A DNA stretch of 64,000 nucleotides from positions 248,001 through 312,000 of the forward strand of contig NZ_JAXKVW010000001.1 of assembly GCF_036172515.1 (NCBI RefSeq), written 5' to 3'. The DNA is from Flexistipes sp. (GTDB lineage: Bacteria > Chrysiogenota > Deferribacteres > Deferribacterales > Flexistipitaceae). A model generated the notes under the pieces. That model was not told the origin of the DNA. It did not search any database and was given only the letters and a program-made list of their open reading frames with translations. The position numbers and the translations under genes were made by a program. Positions within the stretch are counted from its first letter, which is position 1; every line of letters starts with the position of its first letter. Below are positions 4,672 to 7,923 of the stretch, piece by piece.

Positions 4672-5568
4672 TCAACGGTTGCCTCCGCCACCGCCGTTAC
4701 CACCCGAACCGGAACCTTCACCGTGACCTCCCATACCTCCGGCGTCACTCATTCCGCCGGCACCTTGCTGTCCGGAGCCTGACATACCGCCTCTACTGCC
4801 GTTCATTCCATCGGCATGCCCCACTGCAGAAGCGCCTCTGTAACCGGCACCTATACTTTTGGACACATTTTCTGTAAATCTGCCGGTATGGGTGCTTGAA
4901 AAATTTTCTCTGAAGCTTTGTCTCATCTGGCTCATTTCCTGATGAGTAAAATTATGCTGCATTGCCTGATTCAAAACTCCATTGATTTGTGATGACTGCA
5001 CTCCCAGTCTACTCATGGTTTTAGCTGTTTCCGTAACCTCTTTTGCCATTTGAGACATATTGCGGTTTTGCTGCATATTTTGATTAAGCATACTGCCGAC
5101 TGCCTGGATATCTTCTTTTTTCATACCGGCTGCCATAGCTTCTTTCACATTTTCTTCAATCTGCTGCCTGACAGATTTCTTTGATGCAAACTGAGCTGCA
5201 AATTTTGATGCGAACTCCTGCCTCTGAGCCATTTGGTTCAAAGCACGGCTAATCATCTGCCCTCTTACATTTTTTGCTATACCCTCGTTTACTTTATCTG
5301 TTAAATCACTGACAGGATATCCCCGCTGCTGGTAATCTTCCACCTTGTTAAGGAAATTGCTGACGGTACTTTTGCTGTATCCGTGCTGGTACATATTCTG
5401 TAATGTTTCAGCAACTTCCCTTGACTCAGTTGCGGCTTGACGCACCTGATTCTGCAATTCGGCGGGAGTATTGCTTATCAGCTCATCCATTTTCACTTCC
5501 GCGGCAGAGACAAATGTATTCAATACTATGCTCAATAGAAAAGCAGCTGTTATTGTTATTTTGTTCAT
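4672..5568 (-). CDS. Secreted Gly-rich protein of the ECF locus
   Basis: I do not recognise a family. The 298-residue product has a clear signal peptide (basic start, hydrophobic core, likely cleavage after VSAA near residue 22). A long, polar helical middle rich in Gln, Met and Ala (25-235) carries repeated QxxxxM-type heptads. The C-terminal tail (about 240-298) is almost entirely Gly, Ser, Met, Asn and His. Its own promoter matches the ECF-type elements of the sigma gene (see 5599-5625). GGAGG lies 7 nt before the ATG. It is the last gene of the sigma/anti-sigma/lipoprotein cluster. An exported envelope or surface protein under ECF control is an inference. Confidence 0.75.
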   Translation of the reverse strand: MNKITITAAFLLSIVLNTFVSAAEVKMDELISNTPAELQNQVRQAATESREVAETLQNMYQHGYSKSTVSNFLNKVEDYQQRGYPVSDLTDKVNEGIAKNVRGQMISRALNQMAQRQEFASKFAAQFASKKSVRQQIEENVKEAMAAGMKKEDIQAVGSMLNQNMQQNRNMSQMAKEVTETAKTMSRLGVQSSQINGVLNQAMQHNFTHQEMSQMRQSFRENFSSTHTGRFTENVSKSIGAGYRGASAVGHADGMNGSRGGMSGSGQQGAGGMSDAGGMGGHGEGSGSGGNGGGGGNR

Positions 5569-5598
5569 TTTGCTTCCTCCAATAACCTTTTAAATATA

Positions 5599-5625
5599 AA
5601 ACGGATTAACTGTGCTTTGGTTACA
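5599..5625 (-). promoter_or_regulatory. Candidate ECF sigma promoter for the Gly-rich secreted protein
   Basis: On the minus strand TGTAAC (5625-5620), a 16-nt spacer and CGTTT (5603-5599) match the two promoters at 7064-7132 in -35 sequence and spacer length. The -35 begins at the base after the stop codon of the upstream lipoprotein gene. The predicted start falls about 25 nt before the ATG at 5568. Confidence 0.7.
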
Positions 5626-5955
5626 TTAAAATTCCAGAATACATAATTTTCCGCCAAATTCGTCTTTAATTTTCATCATGCATTCAGGAAGATATACCTT
5701 CTCGTCCACTTTATAAAAAAACTTTATTTCTTCTACATTTGCCGGTTTGTCTAAGGTATATATCCAGTATCCCTCATTTCTTTTGAAATGACTGCCGGCA
5801 TAATTGTTTATGTCTGAATAGAAGATGACTTTCTCTGCTCCATTTCCATTGTAATAAAACGAAAGAGAGTCTTCCGACTGCTTGACGTAATGCCTTGAGC
5901 ATGCTGTTACTGCTAAAAAAAGTATAATAATTGTACCAACTTTTAATTTTATCAT
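5626..5955 (-). CDS. Small lipoprotein with a CBM48-like fold remnant
   Basis: The 109-residue product starts with a lipoprotein signal (hydrophobic segment then VTAC, Cys about residue 19). The rest resembles, in layout, the C-terminal domain of the anti-sigma factor just upstream: a beta-rich stretch, GYWIYTLDKP, KFFYKVDEKVYLPE and a closing KDEFGGKLCILEF. In the anti-sigma factor the matching pieces are GYWEAEVKLKP, KYFYLINDKKVVADP and VEDGFGNKNSILKV. This points to a related early-set/CBM48 domain, moved to a membrane anchor. The gene overlaps the anti-sigma gene by 4 nt (ATGA). Confidence 0.75.
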   Translation of the reverse strand: MIKLKVGTIIILFLAVTACSRHYVKQSEDSLSFYYNGNGAEKVIFYSDINNYAGSHFKRNEGYWIYTLDKPANVEEIKFFYKVDEKVYLPECMMKIKDEFGGKLCILEF

Positions 5956-6521
5956 GCATTAACCTTCAATATACTGTTTTTGTTGCCGAATCCGTCTTCT
6001 ACTTTATATATTGAAGTGGGATCAGCAACAACTTTTTTATCGTTGATCAGGTAAAAATATTTGTATTCACCGGGCTTGAGTTTTACTTCAGCTTCCCAGT
6101 AACCGCTCTGACTTACTTCATTTAATTTTAACGGCTTCCAGTTAGTAAACTCCCCGGATATCTCCACTTTTTCAGCTTCCGGCTTGTATATTACAAACCT
6201 GTAATTTACAAATTTCTCTGCCTTTTGAGTAGCCGGTTGATTACTGAAAATACTCAAGGCAAAAATAATGATTATAGAAGCAGCAAGCAGTTGTGTGAAG
6301 CGTGTGAGATTTTTATAAGACGGTGCTTTTTTTCCTTTCGGAATATCCAGACGGGGTGTCTGTACTTCTGAAATCTTGTTTTTCATTACCATCTCAAAAT
6401 CAAGTGAGGATATTGTTTCTTCGTAAAACTCTTCCTCCTTGTGCACATTCTCCACAAACAGTTTTTTCTCTTTTAAGTTAAGTTCATCATCTATAAATTG
6501 AGAAACTAAAAACTCCTTCAT
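5952..6521 (-). CDS. Anti-sigma factor with periplasmic CBM48-like domain
   Basis: The 189-residue protein has an N-terminal cytoplasmic helix region (MKEFLVSQFIDDELN..., about 1-75) of anti-sigma type without the zinc HxxxCxxC motif. One membrane helix (about 77-95) follows. The C-terminal domain (about 108-189) carries the marks of CBM48/AMPK glycogen-binding or isoamylase early-set modules: SGEFTNWKPL, GYWEAEVKLKPGEYKYFY, DP and GFGNKNSILKV. It follows the ECF sigma gene by 2 nt. The natural inference is that it holds the sigma factor at the membrane and senses something, perhaps a glucan, outside. Release mechanism and ligand are unknown. Confidence 0.82.
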   Translation of the reverse strand: MKEFLVSQFIDDELNLKEKKLFVENVHKEEEFYEETISSLDFEMVMKNKISEVQTPRLDIPKGKKAPSYKNLTRFTQLLAASIIIIFALSIFSNQPATQKAEKFVNYRFVIYKPEAEKVEISGEFTNWKPLKLNEVSQSGYWEAEVKLKPGEYKYFYLINDKKVVADPTSIYKVEDGFGNKNSILKVNA

Positions 6522-6523
6522 AG

Positions 6524-6985
6524 CTAAACCTCCTTGAAGTGTTTTTTCAGAGTTTTCCTGGCTCTGTGTATTATAACCTTTATATTAGCTTCGGAATGCC
6601 CTGTTATTTCGGCGATTTCCCTGTATTTCATATCATTAATGATTTTAAGTGTGAAGATATGTTTTGTTTCATCGTCCAGTTTTGCAAGCATCTTTTCAAG
6701 AAAATCATCTTCCTTTTCCGCTGATACGTTATTGTGCTCATCTTTAAAAGAGGACAAAAAATCCTGTTCTACATATACTTCCCTTTTTTTGCGTTTTGTA
6801 TCCAGAAAAGCGTTTTTGCCTATTTTGTATAACAGTCCTTTGTTTGGATTATCCTGGTATTTTTGATACATTTTGAAGTAACTTTCCTGGAATATGTCAC
6901 TGGCTGTTTCATAGTCGCTGCAGAGATAATACAGATATTTGAAAAAACCGTCTTTGGTTTCCGAGTAAAATTTATCAAAAGTCAT
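6524..6985 (-). CDS. ECF-type RNA polymerase sigma factor
   Basis: The 153-residue protein has sigma region 2 (about residues 8-70, with YYLCSDYETASDIFQESYFKMY) and region 4 (about 100-150, with LDDETKHIFTLKIINDMKYREIAEI and an HTH ending in VIIHRARKTLKKH). There is no region 1 or 3, which defines the ECF class. It heads a minus-strand cluster with its anti-sigma factor and two exported proteins. A promoter at 7090-7064 of the same type as the one driving the divergent lipoprotein suggests autoregulation. Confidence 0.93.
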   Translation of the reverse strand: MTFDKFYSETKDGFFKYLYYLCSDYETASDIFQESYFKMYQKYQDNPNKGLLYKIGKNAFLDTKRKKREVYVEQDFLSSFKDEHNNVSAEKEDDFLEKMLAKLDDETKHIFTLKIINDMKYREIAEITGHSEANIKVIIHRARKTLKKHFKEV

Positions 6986-7063
6986 ATATTCTCGCTCATT
7001 GTTTTAATATAGCCGTATATTTTAATTTACCAACACAATTTTGTATATTTGTATTCAGGTATA

Positions 7064-7090
7064 AGACGTGTGAGCAACAAAAAAGTTACA
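7064..7090 (-). promoter_or_regulatory. Candidate autoregulatory ECF promoter of the sigma gene
   Basis: On the minus strand TGTAAC (7090-7085), 16 nt and CGTCT (7068-7064) form an ECF-type promoter (general pattern xGxAAC-N16-CGTnn). It points at the sigma gene, leaving a leader of about 70 nt. It is back-to-back with the plus-strand copy at 7106-7132. Confidence 0.7.
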
Positions 7091-7105
7091 TTCTGATAAA
7101 AAATT

Positions 7106-7132
7106 TGTAACGTTTCTGTTTTTCTTTCGTTC
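7106..7132 (+). promoter_or_regulatory. Candidate ECF promoter of the divergent lipoprotein
   Basis: TGTAAC (7106-7111), a 16-nt spacer and CGTTC (7128-7132) repeat the -35 and spacing of the sigma gene's own promoter. The predicted start lies about 20-25 nt before the ATG at 7162, with AAGGAGG in between. Confidence 0.7.
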
Positions 7133-7161
7133 AGTACACAAGAAAAAACAAGGAGGTAGTA

Positions 7162-7923
7162 ATGAAATATTTTAAACAACTTATTTTAGGGATTGCAACA
7201 GTTCTGTTACTGTTCACGCTTTCTGCATGCGGCAGCAGTTCTTCAGACAGCACAGGATCAACCACGGATTCAACTCTATCCGGTGTGGTAGTGGACGGAT
7301 ATCTGGATGGCGCTAAAGTTTTCCTCGACTGTAATAACAATCTGGAACAAGATTACAATGAAGTCACAGTGGATTGGACAGACGAAAACGGCAATTATTC
7401 TTTAAGTTTACCTGACAATGCATCCCAATGTGCAGTTGTGGCACTGGGGATTGCTAATCAAACTTATGAGCATTTTGACAACGGTACTTCAGAGATGCTG
7501 AGAAATAATCTGACAATGGTATCTATGGACAACGATTCATACAGGGTAATCTCACCTTTTACATCGCTTCACTGGTACTATATGAATAATGACAATGACA
7601 ACATGACCTTTGAAGAGGCGAGAAACCAGGTAATGCAGGAGCTTGGCCTTCCTTCCGGCAATGCAGTATTTGAGGACTTTGTGGCCAGAGCAAGGGATAA
7701 TTCATCATACAGGAATATGGTGCAGACGTCTCTTAGAATGGGTGAATATATGGGATATTATTGCAGTCAGGACAATTCCACTGACAATATGACTGTAAAA
7801 ATGAGAAATGCTTTCAGATATATGCATCAGAATGTAGGAATGGATAATTTTACTGACAGCAGTATCCAGCCCGGCAAAATGGATGAGCGTTTTCCCGTGG
7901 AAATGGAAAATATGCAGCAATAA
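7162..7923 (+). CDS. Lipoprotein, probable ECF regulon member
   Basis: No family is certain. The 253-residue product has a lipoprotein signal (LLLFTLSAC, Cys about residue 22), a Ser/Thr/Asp linker, and a segment with GVVVDGYLDGAKVFLD, NNLEQD and TDENGNYSL (about 40-90). That segment is the pattern of carboxypeptidase-regulatory/SdrD-B-like beta domains found in envelope lipoproteins with calcium-like DxNxD loops. The C-terminal half is helical, acidic and rich in Met, Asn and Asp. AAGGAGG precedes the ATG. It is divergent from the ECF sigma gene and carries a matching promoter, so it is likely a sigma target. Confidence 0.8.
   Translation: MKYFKQLILGIATVLLLFTLSACGSSSSDSTGSTTDSTLSGVVVDGYLDGAKVFLDCNNNLEQDYNEVTVDWTDENGNYSLSLPDNASQCAVVALGIANQTYEHFDNGTSEMLRNNLTMVSMDNDSYRVISPFTSLHWYYMNNDNDNMTFEEARNQVMQELGLPSGNAVFEDFVARARDNSSYRNMVQTSLRMGEYMGYYCSQDNSTDNMTVKMRNAFRYMHQNVGMDNFTDSSIQPGKMDERFPVEMENMQQ

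Follow-up and report, generated by a model that had tools for sequence, protein, structure and literature searches.

The window, i.e., the whole 64,000-nucleotide stretch of DNA analyzed here, carries genes for an ECF sigma factor (SIG), a candidate membrane anti-sigma factor with a CBM48-type outer domain (ASF), a lipoprotein (LP109) and a secreted protein (GLY), and the operon SIG-ASF-LP109-GLY is found across the window's order and about 70 loci of Desulfobacterota. Together with promoter-like elements of fixed spacing, these genes probably form a positively autoregulated switch of ECF sigma factor and membrane anti-sigma factor with a small regulon of secreted proteins. This sigma switch, common to two phyla, looks real and undescribed. 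The five open reading frames and three elements reported in the initial annotation are all present where it had placed them:

4672..5568, minus strand: GLY, secreted protein of 298 aa (AlphaFold2 model; conserved in 82 of 92 loci)
5599..5625, minus strand: GLY element, TGTAAC-N16-CGTTT, abutting the LP109 stop and 30 nt before the GLY ATG
5626..5955, minus strand: LP109, lipoprotein of 109 aa, paralogue of the ASF outer domain (hhalign, invariant residues)
5952..6521, minus strand: ASF, candidate membrane anti-sigma factor of 189 aa (AMPK1_CBM and CBM_48 above Pfam cut-offs)
5961-6212, minus strand: outer CBM48/AMPK-type domain of ASF, aa 104-187 (Pfam)
6524..6985, minus strand: SIG, ECF sigma factor of 153 aa (Pfam Sigma70_r4_2, E=2.6e-13, and Sigma70_r2, E=8.9e-6, both above cut-off)
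7064..7090, minus strand: SIG operon element, TGTAAC-N16-CGTCT, 78 nt before the SIG ATG
7106..7132, plus strand: LP253 element, TGTAAC-N16-CGTTC, 29 nt before the LP253 ATG
7162..7923, plus strand: LP253, divergent lipoprotein of 253 aa (lipobox LSAC visible)

The Pfam matches bear out the assignment of SIG as an ECF sigma factor: regions 2 and 4 were the only sigma domains to score above cut-off, and SIG also matches TIGR02937 above its cut-off. Its orthologues occupy operon position one or two in 92 loci. ASF matches were found in 25 of the 60 relatives searched, and nearly all of the 10-kb loci around these matches preserve the order [Gly-rich]-SIG-ASF-LP109-GLY. A scan of named genomes yielded 156 relatives, of which 80 were kept, the majority being Desulfobacterota, and gene order and elements at these loci are the same as in the window's order. 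The gene order, which the initial annotation had proposed to look for in other genomes, is thus conserved in both Deferribacterota and Desulfobacterota. In a tree of the SIG and ASF sequences, the Deferribacterota form almost one group (two changes, with L051 on a long branch), which gives no hint that the system was exchanged often. No further conserved neighbors of the operon were found except Gly-rich genes. LP253 was rejected as a core part, since its close orthologues at the locus are restricted to the window's genus (where the element accompanies them in G001 and G002 alone) and since its paralogue at G000:C4:29647-30393, with 61% identity, has no TGTAAC element in the 240 bases before its start.

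Each of the three elements points at a gene of the locus, SIG included, as their coordinates and strands confirm. The pattern TGTAAC-N16-CGTYY was observed three times in the window compared with 0.07 expected from dinucleotide shuffles, none of which reached three, and it has four exact matches in the whole 2.47-Mb genome, three of them at this locus. This genome-wide scan, suggested in the initial annotation, argues against occurrence at random frequency. The fourth site (C18:13807-13833) is on another contig, upstream of a 100-aa secreted Gly-rich ORF (GLY2) whose start codon follows after 30 nt, so that every match in the genome lies immediately upstream of a gene of the locus or of a Gly-rich secreted gene. 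In most relatives from the window's taxonomic order, the GLY2 homologue is the first gene of the operon; here it lies on a separate contig with the same element, and this separation acts as a natural test of the element's membership in the regulon. The proposal of a self-contained ECF sigma regulon built around a CBM48-type anti-sigma factor is therefore strongly supported with respect to gene order, promoters and a regulon conserved in two phyla, but it has to be extended by one member, on contig C18, outside the coordinates given for it. A looser pattern, TGTAAC-N15-17-CGT, gave mostly background matches across the genome. At L004:1558-2587, the Gly-rich regulon gene of contig C18 is followed by a same-strand ORF resembling msrA (methionine sulfoxide reductase).

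The spacing was examined in 92 distinct operon loci (853,671 bases) for spacers of 12-20 nt, with the reversed pattern as a control. TGTAAC-N16-CGTY accounts for 140 matches, whereas the spacers N12-15 and N17-20 have 0-6 matches each and the reversed control has 7. The exact 16-nt spacing noticed in the window is thus a property of the element across these loci, where its consensus is TGTAACCTTT-N12-CGTT(A/T). Upstream of SIG, the element is present in 64 of 88 loci, the other 24 being without an exact element in the region tested, and at the matching place before GLY it is present in 30 of 82. Judged from sequence, SIG is predicted to regulate its own operon through this promoter-like element of conserved spacing.

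Among the 80 named-genome loci, 95 of 128 element sites precede SIG, GLY, GLY2 or LP109. By our reading, 21 of the remaining 33 sites lie before secreted Gly-rich proteins, most with GPGDGTGNG-like repeats; the others precede a repeat protein (1), LP253 (1), PAS-like proteins (2) or an unrelated secreted protein (2), have no following ORF in the locus (5, in several cases because the contig stops short of the place expected for GLY) or appear to be due to chance (1). A stricter pattern, applied genome-wide to 16 Desulfobacterota genomes, yielded 25 matches in 14 genomes, mostly at the operon. Five remote sites were examined: two are followed by Gly-rich secreted proteins with GPGDGTG or GAGPGP repeats, another by a small secreted protein, and two are inside ORFs. 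With so few sites, mostly at the operon or before secreted Gly-rich proteins, the regulon is small. The conserved operon, the excess at N16 and the position of most remaining sites before GPGDGTGNG-repeat secreted proteins together point to a tiny, conserved and probably autoregulated regulon. In two Desulfopila genomes (L078:6268, minus strand; L129:4216, minus strand), the element is followed by a PAS-like protein and not by a Gly-rich one. At L081:7290 (plus strand) and L125:2634 (plus strand), it is followed by a secreted protein that lacks Gly-rich repeats; the proteins of these two loci resemble each other and have a YGLGP motif.

LP109 had been described as a lipoprotein of related fold, and profile-profile comparison with the ASF outer domain agrees (hhalign probability 98.7, E=3.4e-16). 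In addition to the lipobox Cys19, LP109 has two further invariant Cys (92 and 105); a lipoprotein paralogue with invariant Cys suggests a protein-protein use of the CBM48 fold. GLY has a signal peptide followed by a 13-helix domain (about aa 27-250) and ends in a Gly-rich, disordered tail; its AlphaFold2 model has pLDDT mostly above 90 for aa 31-250 and pTM 0.74. Comparison of the GLY fold against the PDB gave no significant match, the best being a designed protein (E=0.014). PDB sequence matches of GLY were mostly Gly-linker artefacts, and Pfam/NCBIfam assignments of GLY as GNAT, IS256 and others were rejected because they fall below cut-offs and stem from sequence that is helical or of low complexity.

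A profile of the GLY helical domain has matches in 16 of 148 sampled Desulfobacterota genomes, and comparison of coordinates places all 16 next to a match to the ASF profile; since the GLY profile was partly built from at least 5 of those genomes, at most 11 of the matches are independent. The occurrence of the GLY domain only beside a CBM48 anti-sigma match suggests that GLY is likely a dedicated partner of ASF. Nine of the 16 genomes carry diverged modules. Eight diverged loci were read, and most of them combine an ECF sigma gene with a CBM48 protein and a GLY-like protein; the GLY match there is located in the helical region and shows no composition bias. TGTAAC-N16-CGTT is absent from these eight loci (one, L208, has a CGTC variant), and neither a separate LP109 gene nor DGTG proteins were found in the diverged modules read. 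The pairing of GLY with a CBM48 protein holds even there, and the regulon of the window's system is nearly confined to the operon's own secreted proteins. Both observations would fit a feedback by the product, in which the ASF outer domain and LP109 would sense how the secreted proteins of the operon are exported or assembled, and in which chiefly GLY would bind the CBM48-type domain and reset or trigger the switch. The co-occurrence of GLY, however, is equally compatible with GLY as an output as with GLY as a ligand, and we regard such feedback as possible but rather doubtful.

The ASF outer domain matches AMPK1_CBM (E=5.8e-10) and CBM_48 (E=7.1e-8) above Pfam cut-offs, and the two families are matched in 43 of 43 and 42 of 43 orthologues, respectively. 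Its best Foldseek match is AMPK beta1 (1z0m, TM 0.89 on target), and a sequence profile links it to the AMPK beta glycogen-binding domain (E=8e-12), so the CBM48 assignment of the initial annotation withstands comparison by both sequence and structure. The AlphaFold2 model (pLDDT 83) has helices at aa 2-13, 16-26 and 30-52 and one hydrophobic membrane helix at about aa 77-92. The ASF N-terminus has no Pfam anti-sigma match, RsgI_N and zf-HC2 included, and SIG has no SigI-type Pfam match. Support for an anti-sigma role of ASF comes from a sister clade, whose proteins carry this CBM48 domain behind a zf-HC2 anti-sigma domain and are encoded next to an ECF gene; of three sister CBM48 proteins scanned, two (L206 and L208) had a confirmed zf-HC2.

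The main glucan contacts of AMPK beta1 are W100, K126, W133 and N150. Equivalents of W100 and N150 are invariant in the 43 ASF orthologues, whereas both other contacts are lost in all of them, the K126 position being Ser, Thr or other and the W133 position Arg, Gln, Val or other. Most of the sister CBM48 proteins keep Trp at the W133 position (KKWLPDP). The sister modules of Desulfobacterota (L205-L209) share with the window's system the same three core parts (ECF sigma factor, CBM48 anti-sigma factor and GLY-like helical secreted protein) and differ from it in zf-HC2, the mostly kept W133 equivalent, other promoters and the LP109 gene, which was not found in them. RsgI anti-sigma factors carry carbohydrate-binding domains, and by this precedent the ASF domain could be a polysaccharide sensor, binding alpha-glucan or exopolysaccharide on the outer side of the membrane and reporting it in the manner of RsgI in Clostridium thermocellum. 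The clear CBM48/AMPK fold, the two invariant contacts and the Trp of the zf-HC2 sister clade favor this explanation. The loss of the other two contacts argues against it, as do the protein-protein use suggested by LP109 and the conserved neighbors and regulon, among which no glycosidase or polysaccharide gene was found. We therefore consider a polysaccharide sensor unlikely. The glucan sensor of the initial annotation is not supported as stated despite the fold, and glucan sensing in general is weakened; the ASF outer domain could have other envelope ligands, the secreted products of the operon itself among them.

Finally, the elements might be chance occurrences or sites of another regulator, given that other ECF factors also have TGTAAC-like -35 boxes. 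TGTAACC-N15-CGTT, however, occurs in 22 of the 24 genomes where ASF was matched and in 4 of the 24 where no match was found, and those four sites lie inside long ORFs (3) or have no ORF after them (1). With the exact spacing over 92 loci, the motif largely absent from relatives in which ASF was not found and no more than one further ORF of the genome (G000:C5:59747-59893) strongly matching an ECF-type region 4, this explanation is highly improbable.

The autoregulated switch that we favor may operate as follows. The cytoplasmic helices of ASF would hold SIG, and a signal received by the outer CBM48-type domain, probably with the participation of LP109, would free it. Regulated proteolysis is the usual route by which a sigma factor is released from its anti-sigma factor. 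Freed SIG would then read promoters of the form TGTAACcttt-N12-CGTT and boost its own operon along with a handful of secreted proteins, i.e., GLY, the DGTG-repeat Gly-rich proteins and, in this genome, LP253. The trigger is most likely an envelope component or state reported via GLY or LP109 rather than free glycogen.

A search of the literature other than the main 2021 ECF classification found no description of the system, and the sigma group may already be numbered in that classification. With somewhat less than even confidence, we propose that the system represents a new envelope-signaling pathway found in two phyla, whose CBM48-type fold would have been turned from sugar binder to sensor of protein or envelope, with a lipoprotein copy of itself, an obligate and structurally new helical secreted partner, and control of undescribed DGTG-repeat Gly-rich surface proteins. 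The system brings together, in one testable unit, a sigma factor that has not been studied, an exact promoter code and several protein families that Pfam does not name, and the DGTG-repeat secreted proteins gain a first functional handle. The carriers are sulfate reducers and Deferribacterota, with cultured species including Desulfoluna limicola and Desulfobacter vibrioformis, and the 16-nt spacer and tiny regulon make the system easy to test.

Three known systems invite comparison, among them the RsgI/SigI biomass-sensing system of Clostridium thermocellum (PMC4711584). The AMPK beta glycogen-binding domain (CBM48) shares its fold and sequence profile with the ASF outer domain, which differs in the K126 and W133 replacements of all 43 orthologues and in its predicted location outside the cytoplasmic membrane. 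The RsgI/SigI system likewise has an anti-sigma factor with a carbohydrate-type outer domain. Here, in contrast, the sigma factor is of the ECF and not the SigI type, ASF has no RsgI_N Pfam match, the glucan contacts are half conserved and the regulon is without polysaccharide-degrading genes. A further likeness is to ECF sigma factors with membrane-bound class I anti-sigma factors, where the sigma factor has domains 2 and 4 only and adjoins a one-span membrane protein, and where an autoregulated promoter, seen here as promoter-like sequence, pairs AAC and CGT boxes at a fixed spacing of 16 nt. Unlike those systems, the one described here combines a CBM48/AMPK-type outer domain and an N-terminus without a Pfam-recognized zf-HC2 with a lipoprotein paralogue of the outer domain in the operon and a regulon mostly of Gly-rich secreted proteins.
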